From NCBI RefSeq assembly GCF_000336385.2, contig NZ_HG424497.1, positions 1 to 41,757 of the forward strand: 41,757 nt of DNA. Reading direction: 5' to 3'. Made by a program: the position numbers and the translations under genes. This document shows, piece by piece, positions 29,711 through 38,885 of this stretch; positions within the stretch are counted from its first letter, which is position 1; each line of letters starts with the position of its first letter. Below the pieces are notes generated by a model that ran no database searches, was not told the DNA's origin, and saw nothing but the letters and a program-made list of their open reading frames with translations. This stretch comes from Lysobacter antibioticus HS124. Lineage in GTDB: Bacteria; Pseudomonadota; Gammaproteobacteria; Xanthomonadales; Xanthomonadaceae.

Positions 29711-29730
29711 CGCGGCTTCCCGATCTACCT

Positions 29731-29812
29731 GTAGGAGCGGCGCGGGGTTTGGAACGATAAATTCCACCGCGCAGGCCCCCGCACGGCTTGACTCCCGCCG
29801 CGCCGCCCCTAC
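29731..29812. repeat. inverted pair of REP-like units
   Basis: GTAGGAGCGGCGCGGGG at 29731-29747 and the inverse CCGCCGCGCCGCCCCTAC at 29795-29812. The right arm overlaps the candidate promoter of the EF-G leader. Confidence 0.55.
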
Positions 29813-29815
29813 GAT
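29788..29815 (+). promoter_or_regulatory. sigma-70-like promoter of the EF-G paralogue leader
   Basis: TTGACT at 29788-29793 and TACGAT at 29810-29815 with a 16-bp spacer, one of the best -35/-10 matches in the window. Transcription would start near 29822, about 360 nt before the EF-G-like ATG. It overlaps the arm of a REP-like repeat, which lowers certainty. Confidence 0.45.
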
Positions 29816-29857
29816 ATGCACACGCATCACCCATCCCTTTCTTCAGGCCGTCCCATC

Positions 29858-29956
29858 ATGCAGCGCTTCCCGCTCCTGATATCGCTGAACGCCCTGCGCG
29901 CGAGCGCGGGCCGGGTGCGCCTGCCTCCTGCGATCTTCGCTTCGCGGTCGAACTGA
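29858..29956 (+). CDS. possible 32-residue leader ORF
   Basis: ATG-initiated ORF (MQRFPLLISLNALRASAGRV...) ending in TGA, placed between a promoter-like element and an intrinsic terminator whose stem starts 28 bases after the stop. The Shine-Dalgarno is weak (AGG at 29845-29847). The spacing suits a leader peptide whose translation could affect folding of the terminator, but in GC-rich DNA an ORF this short can arise by chance. No known peptide is recognised. Confidence 0.3.
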   Translation: MQRFPLLISLNALRASAGRVRLPPAIFASRSN

Positions 29957-29984
29957 CCGGCGTCGTCCGAAGCCGCACGAAAAC

Positions 29985-30008
29985 AAGCACCCGACCGGGT
30001 GCTTTTTT
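29985..30008 (+). terminator. intrinsic terminator or attenuator upstream of the EF-G paralogue
   Basis: AAGCACCC at 29985-29992 pairs with GGGTGCTT at 29997-30004 (GACC loop), followed by a T run to 30008. It lies 275 bp past mksB and 175 bp before the EF-G-like gene. It either ends the condensin transcript or attenuates the leader. A second hairpin (GCCGGC 30028-30033 with 30038-30043, GAGC loop, then TTTCTT) follows. Confidence 0.8.
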
Positions 30009-30086
30009 ATTGCCTGTTTTTCGTCCCGCCGGCGAGCGCCGGCTTTCTTCTCATTGCATCGTCCGTAAAGCCAAGGAGAACGTGTC

Positions 30087-30116
30087 GTGACTACCACGGA
30101 AGACACCCAAGCCTAG
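30087..30116 (+). CDS. possible 9-codon leader peptide
   Basis: A strong Shine-Dalgarno AAGGAG (30073-30078) sits 8 bases before GTG at 30087, opening a 9-codon frame (MTTTEDTQA) that stops at TAG 30114-30116, 67 bases before the EF-G-like start. The strength of the ribosome site compared with the weak one of the main gene suggests the ribosome is meant to load here. The Shine-Dalgarno region (30070-30078) can pair with CTCCTGTTGGC at 30154-30164. A chance occurrence is possible. Confidence 0.4.
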   Translation: MTTTEDTQA

Positions 30117-30169
30117 CCGCGCGTCCCGTCGCCAACCGGGGCGTGCGGCGACCCTCCTGTTGGCCACGA

Positions 30170-30183
30170 ATGCGAGTCCGCAT
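30170..30183 (+). promoter_or_regulatory. hairpin abutting the EF-G paralogue start codon
   Basis: ATGCG (30170-30174) pairs with CGCAT (30179-30183) around AGTC, ending exactly at the ATG and enclosing the weak GAG ribosome site. A stable 6-bp stem (30128-30133 with 30147-30152) lies just upstream. The arrangement could hold initiation down until the leader is remodelled. Confidence 0.4.
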
Positions 30184-32244
30184 ATGAACACCCCGCTCAA
30201 CCGCCTCTCCGTCGACCGCTGGCGCAATCTGGGCATCATCGCCCACGTCGACGCGGGCAAAACCACGCTCACCGAACGCCTGCTGTGGAAGACCGGCGCG
30301 ATCCATCGCACCGGCGAAGTCCACGAGGGCGCCGCCACCACCGACTTCGATCCGATCGAACGCCGCCGCGGCATCACCATCGGCGCGGCCGCCGTGCAGG
30401 CGCGCTGGACGCCGCACGACGGCGCCGAGCATCGCCTGACCGTCATCGACACGCCAGGCCATATCGACTTCGCGATCGAAGTCGAACGCTCGCTGCGCGT
30501 GCTCGACGGCGCGGTCGCGGTGTTCAGCGGCGTCGACGGCGTACAGCCGCAATCGGAAACCGTGTGGCGCCAGGCGCGCCGCCACGGCGTGCCGCTGATC
30601 GCGTTCGTCAACAAGATGGACCGCGTCGGCGCGTCGCTGGAGCGCACGCTGGCGCAGATGCGCGACAAGCTCGACGCGGTGCCGTGGGCGCTGGGCGAAA
30701 CCGTCGGCGAAGAATCCGAACTGCGCGGCTGGATCGACTACGTGGCGCGCGCGAGCCTGTCGTGGGACGAACAGGGCGCGCTGTCTCGCCGGGAATGGAC
30801 CGAGCAGGAGGCGCAAGCGTTCGAACCGGCGCGCCAGCGTCTGGTCGAAGCCGTCGCCGATCACGACGACGCGCTCGCGCTGGCCTTCCTGGAAGGCCGC
30901 GCGGTCGACGCCGAACTGCTCAAGTCGGCGCTGCGCCGGGCCACCCTGGCCGGCGCCGGGACCCCGGTGCTGGCGGGTTCCGCGTTCAAGAACAAGGGCG
31001 TGGAAGCGCTGCTCGACGCGATCGTCGACTACCTGCCGTCGCCGCTGGACCGGCCGGCCGTGCTTGCGCAAAGCGAACGCGGCGAGGTCGAACTGGCGCC
31101 CGACGCCGAGGGGCCGCTGGCCGGCCTGGTGTTCAAGATCGTGCACCAGGAGCACGGTGCGCTCAGTTTCGTGCGCCTGTACTCGGGCACGTTGCGGGTC
31201 GGCGACACGGTATGGGCATCGCGGCGCGAAAAGGCGCTGCGGGTGGGGCGGTTGCAAGTCGTGCAAGCCGACCGCGGCCAGGACGTGGACGTGGCCCGCG
31301 CCGGCGAGATCGTCGCGATCGCGGGTTGGAAAGACGCGGTCAGCGGCGAGACGCTCAGCGGCGTCGGCGCGCGTCTGGCGCTCGACAGCATCCAGGCCCA
31401 GCCTGCGGTGTTGTCGTGGCGATTGACCGCGGCCAAGTCCAGCGACCTGATCCGCCTAGGCCAAGGCCTGGCGAGCCTGGCTCAGCAGGACCCGTCGTTC
31501 CGCGTCGGCACCGACGCGGATACGGGCGAGACCTTGGTCTGGGGCATGGGCGAGCTGCACCTGGAAGTGATGGTCGACCGCTTGCGCGAGTTGTGGAACG
31601 TCGAGGTGCGCACCGGTTCGCCGCGCGTGGCCTATCAGGAAACGCCGAGCCGCGCGGTGCGCGGCGTGGAGGGCAAGTTGTCCAAGCAAACCGGCGGCAG
31701 CGGCCAGTTCGCGCGCGTGGTCATCGACGTGACGCCGCGCGAGGACGGGCAGTTCGAGTTCGTCGACCGCAGCGTGGGCGGCGTGATCCCGCGCAACTTC
31801 GTCGGCGCGACCGAGAAAGGCTTGCGCGCGGCGTTGGCCGAGGGACCGCAAGGTTTCCCGGTAGTGGGTTTGACCGTCGCGCTGACCGACGGCGAGACCC
31901 ACGCGGTGGACTCCTCGGAGCTGGCGTTCCAGCGCGCCGCCGCCGAGGCCCTGAAGGCCGCGCTGGCGCAAGCCGGCACGACCGTGCTCGAACCGATGAT
32001 GGCGCTGGTGGTGGACACCCCCGCGGCCAACGTCGGCGACGTGGTCGGCGACTTGCAGCGGCGTTCCGGCCGCGTCCTGTCCATCGAGGACAAGGGCGGG
32101 CGCAGCGATGTCGCCGCGCGCGCGCCGCTGGCGCAGCTGTCGGGCTATACGACGGCGCTGCGTTCGTTGACTCAGGGGCGCGCGTCGGCGTCGGTGGTGT
32201 TCGACGGCTACGAAGTCGCGCGCGGTTTGCCCAAGGCCGCGTAA
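30184..32244 (+). CDS. elongation factor G paralogue (EF-G2-like translational GTPase)
   Basis: A 686-residue translational GTPase. G1 AHVDAGKTT (20-28), G2 RGITI (62-66), G3 DTPGH (89-93) and G4 NKMD (143-146) are intact. EF-G-specific runs HRTGEVHEGAATTDF and GVQPQSETVWRQA place it with EF-G rather than Tet(M). Domain II begins near 310, domain III carries DLIRLGQGLASLAQQDPSF and GMGELHLEVMVDRL, and domains IV-V end with GDVVGDLQRRSGRVLSIEDK. The domain IV tip reads GGSGQFARVV instead of canonical GGRGQYGHVV, as in divergent EF-G2 proteins. It is not next to rpsL/rpsG/tuf, so it is not the housekeeping fusA. Possible roles are ribosome rescue, recycling, back-translocation or antibiotic protection. 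TTG at 30160 is an alternative start. A terminator follows. Confidence 0.88.
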   Translation: MNTPLNRLSVDRWRNLGIIAHVDAGKTTLTERLLWKTGAIHRTGEVHEGAATTDFDPIERRRGITIGAAAVQARWTPHDGAEHRLTVIDTPGHIDFAIEVERSLRVLDGAVAVFSGVDGVQPQSETVWRQARRHGVPLIAFVNKMDRVGASLERTLAQMRDKLDAVPWALGETVGEESELRGWIDYVARASLSWDEQGALSRREWTEQEAQAFEPARQRLVEAVADHDDALALAFLEGRAVDAELLKSALRRATLAGAGTPVLAGSAFKNKGVEALLDAIVDYLPSPLDRPAVLAQSERGEVELAPDAEGPLAGLVFKIVHQEHGALSFVRLYSGTLRVGDTVWASRREKALRVGRLQVVQADRGQDVDVARAGEIVAIAGWKDAVSGETLSGVGARLALDSIQAQPAVLSWRLTAAKSSDLIRLGQGLASLAQQDPSFRVGTDADTGETLVWGMGELHLEVMVDRLRELWNVEVRTGSPRVAYQETPSRAVRGVEGKLSKQTGGSGQFARVVIDVTPREDGQFEFVDRSVGGVIPRNFVGATEKGLRAALAEGPQGFPVVGLTVALTDGETHAVDSSELAFQRAAAEALKAALAQAGTTVLEPMMALVVDTPAANVGDVVGDLQRRSGRVLSIEDKGGRSDVAARAPLAQLSGYTTALRSLTQGRASASVVFDGYEVARGLPKAA

Positions 32245-38043: not shown

Positions 38044-38221
38044 GCCGCGACCCCGGTATCCGTAGAGAATCCAGCGCCGATGTCGTCGAGCGAAGCCCGA
38101 AACCGTCGCGAGGGTAGGAGCGGCGCAAGCCGCGACCCCGGGACGTGCAGAGAGCCCAACGCCGACGTCATCGATCGAAGCCCGCAACCGTCGCCGAGTA
38201 GGAGCGGCGCAAGCCGCGACC
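38044..38221. repeat. tandem repeat of about 85 bp
   Basis: Unit starts GCCGCGACCCCGG at 38044 and 38129, and its leading GCCGCGACC recurs at 38213, giving periods of 85 and 84 bp. The two full units share GCGCCGA/CGCCGA, GTCGTCGAGCGAAGCCCG-like and ACCGTCGC blocks with scattered substitutions. Confidence 0.7.
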
Positions 38222-38332
38222 GCCATCGGTCATTCTCGCCGCGCCTTTGTCCTGGGCCCCCTGTAGGAGCGGCGTAAGCCGCGACCGCGCTCTTGCGACC
38301 TCGCGGCGTCGGTCGTTCGAAAGCCTGTGAAG

Positions 38333-38356
38333 CTCCAAAGCTCCAAAGCTCCAAAG
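38333..38356. repeat. triplicated 8-mer
   Basis: CTCCAAAG occurs three times head to tail at 38333-38356, followed by CAAAG. Confidence 0.85.
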
Positions 38357-38387
38357 CAAAGCTTCCGTCCGCACGCGGCCGGGTCAC

Positions 38388-38449
38388 TTTCTTTGTCCAA
38401 GGCGACAACGTCCTACTGGATTTCCTTCGGTCAAAAGTAACCAAAGAAA
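38388..38449. repeat. inverted repeat TTTCTTTG/CAAAGAAA
   Basis: TTTCTTTG at 38388-38395 and CAAAGAAA at 38442-38449 flank 46 bp. The combination GTCACTTTCTTTG ... AGTAACCAAAGAAAA resembles a recurrent intergenic element of this bacterial group, here next to REP units. Confidence 0.55.
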
Positions 38450-38613
38450 ACGCCATGACCGTTTCGGATCAAAAGCCACGATGGGATGAGGTTTTCGCCG
38501 GACTGCTCCGCACAGGCTCTTCCTGGCTTGGCTGCGCACGGCCCGTCTCTCTGCGGGCCGCCCTTCGGGGCTTCAGGGCGTTCTCGCGAGATCGCTGCGG
38601 CGCCAGGCTCTTC

Positions 38614-38637
38614 ACGGCAACGGCAACGGCAACGGCA
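38614..38637. repeat. hexamer tandem repeat
   Basis: ACGGCA repeated four times at 38614-38637. Confidence 0.85.
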
Positions 38638-38885
38638 AGCGCTGCGTCGCAATTAGGGTAGAAGCGGCACAAACCGCGACCACCATGCGCCGATTTCACG
38701 GCGATCCCTTGTAGGAGCGGCGTAAGCCGCGACCACACGGCGCGCAGGAAAACCACCGCCGCCGGAATGGATCGAAGCCGCGTTCCGTGGCCTTCGAGTC
38801 GCCACGTCGTCGACGGACTGTCGCGGTCGCGGCGCGGTCAGAGGAAATTCCCGCAGGACGCCGCTCCTATCCTGCCGCTAGGCCC

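Follow-up and report, generated by a model that had tools for sequence, protein, structure and literature searches.

What is the long leader upstream of the elongation factor G (EF-G) paralogue of Lysobacter antibioticus HS124 for? Many bacteria have extra EF-G genes of unknown purpose, and a conserved attenuator in front of one of them would make the question directly testable in a group of soil and opportunistic bacteria that includes Stenotrophomonas, Xanthomonas and Lysobacter. We analysed a stretch of 41,757 nucleotides (positions 1 to 41,757 of contig NZ_HG424497.1, hereafter the window), to which all coordinates refer; all features described lie on its forward strand. An original prediction, made from sequence alone, placed an attenuator-like leader upstream of the EF-G paralogue, and this claim not only held but is stronger than first stated: the interpretation as an attenuator is supported. 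Our reading, to which we give a probability of roughly 0.78, is that the leader is a ribosome-mediated transcription attenuator that senses slow translation, followed by an element acting at the level of translation; the switch itself is predicted by folding and there are no expression data.

The downstream gene (30184-32244) has intact GTPase motifs (AHVDAGKTT, RGITI, DTPGH and NKMD) and scores 711.9 against an EF-G cut-off of 659.4. With 369 bits against a cut-off of 775 it falls far below the score required of Tet ribosomal protection proteins. Since it keeps RGITI, which is absent from EFG II (PMC3150367), we take it to be of the EFG I type, i.e. an extra EFG I-type copy, an inference from score and motifs made without a tree. 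Among 60 genomes searched, its own included, the paralogue was found with 81-92% identity in 18 genomes of the same genus and 59-71% in three others, other full-length EF-G copies being about 45% identical. Two EFG I copies are likewise present in Pseudomonas aeruginosa, where they differ in activity and in their response to fusidic acid (PMC3832671); because these are 84% identical to each other, they probably belong to a different lineage from the Lysobacter paralogue. The possibility of a mobile resistance gene was rejected, all 1371 matching plasmid records being less than 60% identical. Two oddities came to light among the loci: in a Xanthomonas-like genome (L133, G225) the paralogue match carries one internal TAG, and a record titled Bacillus subtilis SK7B5 (L107), with a Stenotrophomonas-like leader and EF-G, is probably mislabelled or contaminated.

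All 21 relatives' upstream regions carry the same leader. In their alignment, the promoter, a first short ORF (ORF1), the terminator, a second short ORF (ORF2) with its Shine-Dalgarno sequence and a hairpin/pseudoknot stand out as conserved islands, and the stretches before the promoter and between the terminator and ORF2 are poorly conserved. Lack of conservation of the promoter, short ORFs and hairpins would have refuted the prediction; instead, several genera share them, with compensatory changes. The link to the gene is equally consistent: among 299 sampled genomes of the order, the leader lies upstream of the paralogue in all 42 genomes that have one (called at 867 bits or more, the next best EF-G scoring 613). 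A covariance model, R1, found 31 of these, about 40-260 nt upstream of the paralogue and on the same strand, seven of the 31 having contributed to building the model; the remaining 11 form one group of the Stenotrophomonas kind, judged by its likeness to named records, in which the same architecture with a diverged terminator was read by eye. R1 matched 34 genomes of the order in total, 31 just upstream of the paralogue and three elsewhere. Three of 369 genomes of the class had the paralogue at that level. R1 matched two of them and, in addition, a single unrelated terminator; the third, G061, belongs to the eleven Stenotrophomonas-kind genomes. Four R1 matches come from genomes without the paralogue: those in G117 (L057, E 9e-6) and G368 (L062) are plain terminators by eye, and those in G262 and G278 are weak.

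Named records with the leader belong to Lysobacter, Xanthomonas, Stenotrophomonas, Pseudoxanthomonas, Luteimonas and Tahibacter. A pattern scan of named records gave 58 loci, 53 of them with EF-G; in four (L083, L085, L090 and L113) the match lies at the edge of the locus with the gene beyond it, and a Bacteroidales MAG (L080) has no EF-G. The leader as a whole matches its own genome once. No Rfam family reached its gathering threshold; at E up to 1 there were only two weak matches on the opposite strand (20.1 and 19.4 bits against thresholds of 60 and 70). Conservation of the leader, its covariation, the keeping of its reading frames and its linkage to the paralogue are features that we regard as shown in the genomes sampled.

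Transcription is expected to begin near 29822, from a sigma-70-like promoter (TTGACT-N16-TACGAT, 29788-29815) that is predicted and has no experimental mapping. One promoter-like match was found against 0.1 expected in shuffles, and TTGAC is invariant in 21 aligned leaders, so that this part of the prediction held. The -35/-10 stretch overlaps one arm of a TGTAGGAGCGGCG palindromic repeat; the promoter is kept in two loci (L013 and L016) with no visible palindromic repeat in the approximately 100 nt before it. Repeats of this type lie at 29730-29742, 29801-29813 and 38113-38871, and the window holds 11 matches with at most two mismatches against 2.6 expected. A promoter carried by the repeat was considered and rejected, since the leader matches once in the genome and the palindromic repeat is missing here in some relatives.

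ORF1 (29858-29956) encodes the leader peptide MQRFPLLISLNALRASAGRVRLPPAIFASRSN and, as predicted, has 32 codons. It has no clear Shine-Dalgarno sequence, and its start, stop and frame are kept in relatives, with lengths of 28-34 codons in 82 distinct parsed leaders (those left after dropping the unparsed loci L045, L074, L078 and L121 and loci without a matched terminator, such as L064, and merging duplicates). Codons 5-7 read Pro-Leu-Leu (PLL) in 68 of the 82, and two more have a near form (PLI, RLL). The parser required PL, KH, HIL or RLL near the N-terminus, so this count is partly by construction, although no more than one locus (L074) was lost in this way. In the 70 anchored leaders the proline is present in 69, the first leucine in 70 and the second in 69. 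All four CTN codons occur at the first leucine (CTC 43, CTG 14, CTA 10, CTT 3) while the residue itself is kept in 70/70, which indicates selection on the peptide rather than on the base.

In the window, PLL is followed by a rare AUA codon (29879-29881), and we propose the two together (29870-29881) as a site where the ribosome would slow. AUA is the codon used in 32 of 33 leaders with isoleucine after PLL, compared with 1 of 156 isoleucine codons in seven long window ORFs, which we assumed to be genes. It directly follows PLL in the Lysobacter, Xanthomonas and Tahibacter types; in the Stenotrophomonas type the codon after PLL is AAG or ACG, neither of them rare, and UUU comes one codon later (34 of 36 phenylalanines), a codon that is never used in four EF-G genes from this group, which have 14-16 phenylalanines each. 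The residue after PLL accordingly varies between I, K and T. It is possible that the rare codon is a built-in slow site; it is also possible that AU-rich codons at this pivot serve the openness of the RNA instead of slow decoding. Twelve leaders of a g69 type have a different peptide (e.g. CKHDL...IA..ARRGCAR), without PLL and without the AUA/UUU pivot. In S. maltophilia-like leaders (e.g. L127) about 7 nt separate the -10 box from the start codon of ORF1, which suggests that ORF1 might be translated there from a leaderless mRNA, a possibility inferred from sequence. A '+X+' sequence is known as a macrolide motif; we rejected RVR in ORF1 as such a motif, as it falls within the predicted OFF stretch and reads RAC in S. 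maltophilia.

The RNA strands that would make up the switch lie in and just after ORF1. Strand 0 (29860-29872) is predicted by folding to pair with strand 2 before strand 3 has been made, i.e. to act as an anti-antiterminator. Strand 2 (CGGGTGC, 29912-29918) lies within ORF1 and is complementary to strand 3 (GCACCCG, 29987-29993), the 5' arm of the terminator, so that strand 3 is common to the antiterminator (2:3) and the terminator (3:4). Between the two antiterminator strands lies a stem-loop, P2 (29930-29976), which contains the ORF1 stop codon. The intrinsic terminator itself consists of a hairpin (29985-30004) and a T run reaching 30008, as predicted, and its arms are conserved in relatives; in the terminator scan as a whole this hairpin, detected on both strands, accounts for two of the three sites, a total only modestly higher than the 1.0 expected. 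Immediately before strand 2 stands HP1, a hairpin of 8 pairs (29891-29911) whose loop is of the GNRA type in 19 of 22 aligned leaders. RNA polymerase pauses have the consensus G-10, pyrimidine -1, G+1; as HP1 adjoins strand 2 and the bases that follow it in the window fit this consensus, we take HP1 to be a pause hairpin, a role that is inferred. HP1, strand 2 and the rare AUA codon had been missed by the original prediction. A second hairpin with a T-rich tail, which it had listed at 30028-30043, is present, yet it is shrunk or missing in L005, L010, L021 and L022; being not conserved, it was rejected as a second terminator.

Covariation supports these helices. Across 21 distinct relatives, 99.4% of cells are paired in the terminator arms (with no double change within A2); the figures are 97.6% for HP1, with two doubly changed pairs, and 90.4% for P2, with double changes in six of its eight pairs. 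Jointly, the three give 95.8% of cells paired and eight pairs changed on both sides. None of 500 shuffles reached the observed values on four of five measures (109 did on the fifth, further pair types), and slid structures reached at most 53.1% of cells paired; related sequences may exceed shuffles even without structure. All seven antiterminator pairs can form in 20 of the 22 aligned leaders; the other two have six and miss the outer pair. This high count is partly by construction, because strand 2 was located with a pattern permitting T or C. In one genome (L045/L121) strand 2 is shortened.

The clearest signal is a change involving three strands. The terminator of the Stenotrophomonas type has the sequence GCGCCC/GGGCGC, and its strand in ORF1 is altered accordingly to GGGCG[CT], i.e. 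strand 2 and both terminator arms change together from T-A-T to C-G-C. Among the 82 distinct leaders, C in strand 2 goes with G in strand 3 in 35 of 35 cases and T with A in 46 of 47, the exception (L046) forming a G-U pair and so being an intermediate. Such a change is what is expected of mutually exclusive helices; it may represent only one or two evolutionary events. The locus thus meets, by sequence, the criteria for an attenuator: a short ORF over the control strand, a terminator before the gene and a mutually exclusive antiterminator that shares the terminator's 5' arm. It resembles a leader-peptide attenuator in these sequence-based tests; regulated read-through and translation of ORF1 are inferred.

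The folding energy of the single sequence is unremarkable (z = -1.65; 15 of 200 shuffles as low), and our case therefore rests on conservation and covariation. Before strand 4 exists the window RNA is predicted to fold into 2:3 with HP1 and P2, and the full RNA into the terminator with strand 2 paired to the start of ORF1. To model the ribosome we masked its footprint in 80 distinct leaders (32 with AUA, 36 other PLL leaders and 12 of the g69 type), from which the three leading codons overlapping the -10 box in S. maltophilia-like leaders had been removed and duplicates merged again; here 'Stenotrophomonas type' means PLL leaders without AUA, which include L023 and L109. With the mask at the pivot, 0:2 falls to 0.00, a loss that is partly built in since the mask covers strand 0. 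The mean probability of 2:3 is then 0.97 in the AUA group, 0.95 in the other PLL leaders and 0.69 in the g69 type, exceeding 0.8 in 31/32, 34/36 and 8/12, respectively; the exceptional L023 reaches only 0.10. With the mask at the stop codon, 2:3 drops to 0.32 in the Stenotrophomonas type, whereas the AUA group keeps 0.91 and the g69 type 0.63. The AUA group has 0.98 without any ribosome, and most of its loss of 2:3 comes when the ribosome sits at about codons 15-25; since 2:3 is predicted both without a ribosome and at the stop codon, the OFF state in this group would have to come from the order of folding, which was not simulated. When the window's ORF1 was recoded synonymously, 4 of 300 sequences matched the natural one in sequestering strand 3. 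The model predictions thus support a slow ribosome as the ON state, with OFF at the stop codon clear only in the Stenotrophomonas type.

In the mechanism that we propose, RNA polymerase would start near 29822 and probably pause at HP1 while a ribosome begins ORF1. A ribosome that moves slowly or stalls near PLL-AUA would cover strand 0 and leave strand 2 free to pair with the emerging strand 3, so that no terminator forms and transcription continues into the EF-G paralogue. Should the ribosome complete ORF1 instead, 0:2 would re-form behind it, or the ribosome itself would cover strand 2; strand 3 would then pair with strand 4 and transcription end at 30008. The net effect would be that the paralogue is made when elongation is impaired, with ORF2 and the pseudoknot downstream setting or gating its translation in a manner that is unresolved. 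That the leader senses slow translation is inferred, and the drug- or stress-inducible switch of the original prediction remains an inference, as it was there, no inducer having been identified.

The part downstream of the terminator (module 2) begins with a Shine-Dalgarno sequence, AAGGAG (30073-30078; the module's ORF region spans 30073-30116), that is invariant or nearly so in relatives and precedes ORF2 (VTTTEDTQA, GTG at 30087 to TAG at 30114-30116); both the strong Shine-Dalgarno sequence and the nine-codon ORF had been predicted. ORF2 has nine codons in most loci and 10, 14 or 22 in some, with peptides such as MHQIAETER, MHYAAEPET and MKNCRDPRS elsewhere. In the usual form its stop codon abuts a hairpin, S1 (30116-30149), that begins at the last base of the stop (99.5% of cells paired, three pairs with a double change). 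A hairpin against the start codon of the EF-G gene had been predicted, and this claim failed as written: S1 excludes the ATG, and its loop (GCCAAC, 30131-30136) pairs instead with GTTGGC at 30159-30164. Between this second helix, S2 (30131-30164), and the ATG at 30184 there are about 20 nt, and together S1 and S2 likely form an H-type pseudoknot.

Pairing between the loop and the downstream strand, sought within about 230 nt, is kept in every one of the 79 distinct leaders that show the ORF2 pattern, in two helix versions plus two leaders with a G-U pair: GCCAAC/GTTGGC in 67, GCCAGGGGC/GCCCCTGGC in 10 and GCCAAT opposite GTTGGC in two, these last read by eye. S2 is invariant in the 21 aligned leaders and never varies within A3, and its covariation rests on one clade switch and two wobbles. 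Three loci lacked the ORF2 pattern; by eye, L061/L142 are misses of the pattern and L058 (G251) truly has neither ORF2 nor pseudoknot, its attenuator being joined almost directly to EF-G. As L058 keeps the attenuator alone, module 2 is separable from it. In L047, L048, L125 and their kin, of the Stenotrophomonas type, TAG of ORF2 has become TGG and the ORF extends to a TAG in the S1 loop (MHQIAEPQTWPHAR). A prfB-like frameshift from ORF2 into EF-G was rejected, because the spacing keeps no constant frame: stop-to-start distances vary between 60 and 67 nt, with each of the three frames represented (17 of 22 leaders; L004, L005, L007, L022 and L023, whose EF-G start was misplaced by a first-ATG rule, are excluded). 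Module 2 could be a translation checkpoint, a binding site for a protein or the ribosome, or a means of mRNA protection; all are possible and none is resolved.

The rival that we take most seriously, without favouring it, is a drug-specific switch, in which ORF1 would be an antibiotic-dependent arrest peptide with PLL in the tunnel, as in erm or msrD leaders, and the paralogue a ribosome-protecting or drug-insensitive EF-G. In its favour, PLL is conserved at the peptide level and at fixed codons, the EF-G-like proteins TetM and TetO protect ribosomes (PMC12190993), and the PA5471.1 leader of P. aeruginosa is a proposed drug-responsive attenuator (PMC12057347). Against it, the residue after PLL differs between types, the g69-type leaders have another peptide altogether, and the motifs of the paralogue are those of an ordinary EFG I, its score passing the EF-G cut-off and failing those of tet protection. 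A classical trp-type attenuator responding to leucine, isoleucine or arginine would share the anatomy of leader-peptide attenuators and could use the AUA, CTN and CGC codons of the control region; we consider it unlikely, as ORF1 has no run of codons for one amino acid, leaving the criterion for an amino-acid biosynthesis attenuator unmet, the downstream gene is not biosynthetic, and Lys or Thr replaces Ile in the Stenotrophomonas type.

Little more can be said for a riboswitch-like or protein-bound leader, e.g. autoregulation by EF-G or a ribosomal protein through the pseudoknot with ORF1 incidental. The invariance of S2 and the existence of ribosomal leaders of the rpsL-fusA type (PMC2965389) would fit such an explanation, which is nonetheless improbable: the start, stop and frame of ORF1 survive length changes, its leucine codons drift synonymously, the antiterminator strand lies inside ORF1, one locus keeps the attenuator without module 2, and no Rfam family matches at threshold. 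Least probable of all is that the leader is an independent small RNA or simply the end of an mks transcript. It does have its own promoter, with a terminator about 190 nt away, and mksB lies upstream in the HS124 window and within 1.5 kb in 13 of the 21 first relatives, as well as in five of 82 later loci, all five Lysobacter (the upstream stretch examined varies). However, the paralogue follows in every paralogue-bearing genome of the order, the alternative pairing of the terminator arm is conserved, and the leader is equally conserved without detectable mksB, including in Stenotrophomonas loci with at least 3 kb of upstream sequence, so that a terminator serving only to end the mks transcript fails as a general account.

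We thus retain the ribosome-mediated attenuator as the preferred reading and believe that the finding is real, conserved and new within the open-access literature searched. It hints at how cells could detect a block in protein synthesis and respond to it. Of greatest interest are the pivot with its rare codon, the nature of the inducer and the pseudoknot; the pseudoknot, which is new, and the defined site of the rare codon could both be studied with simple reporter tests. A bolder version, which we hold to be less likely than not, is that the leader gauges the speed of elongation in general rather than one drug or amino acid: PLL and the rare AUA or UUU would form a slow site that makes ribosome lag the signal, and the spare chromosomal EF-G would be the answer. 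If true, this would be a feedback in which the cell monitors how much translocation it can sustain and supplies more elongation factor when that capacity drops; ORF2 with the pseudoknot would form a second checkpoint, at which translation is read once more ahead of EF-G synthesis.

To our knowledge, the proposed attenuator would be a rare case in Gram-negative bacteria of a core elongation factor controlled by a leader peptide. We found no leader or attenuator of such an EF-G paralogue in the open-access literature searched, which leaves out most subscription journals and in which larger result sets were sampled only partly. A 2010 survey of attenuators mentions EF-G once, only in the rpsL operon (PMC2965389), and the relevant sections of a review of translation control in P. 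aeruginosa hold nothing on an EF-G leader (PMC13159725). Among known systems, the ribosomal leaders of rpsL-fusA, including Xanthomonas rpsL, are likewise attenuators linked to EF-G genes (PMC2965389), but they belong to the str operon (with fusA in streptococci), whereas the Lysobacter leader has a leader peptide and serves a separate EF-G paralogue. Proteobacterial attenuators of the trp/ilv type share the pause hairpin, an antiterminator that uses a terminator arm and a leader ORF over the control strand; the Lysobacter leader differs from them in having no repeated amino-acid codons and a translation factor as its target. The leaders of BmrB/BmrCD and MsrD show drug-responsive, ribosome-mediated attenuation with a leader peptide (PMC4191407, PMC10314930), albeit in Gram-positives and with ABC transporter or ABC-F targets, and the fusB leader is proposed to respond to an EF-G-directed stall (PMC12190993), although by translational attenuation of an EF-G-binding protein and not of EF-G. 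The Tet(M) leader attenuator, like the one described here, combines a short leader ORF with a terminator before an EF-G-like GTPase; it serves a Gram-positive mobile resistance gene, in contrast to the chromosomal, ordinary-looking EF-G and the second RNA module of Lysobacter. The nearest proteobacterial case that we met is the PA5471.1 leader of armZ (PA5471) in the control of MexXY in P. aeruginosa, also a gammaproteobacterial leader peptide with one or more terminators before the gene and proposed attenuation by a stalled ribosome (PMC12057347); it controls the anti-repressor of an efflux pump, and the likeness that we draw is one of arrangement, with no sequence relation claimed.
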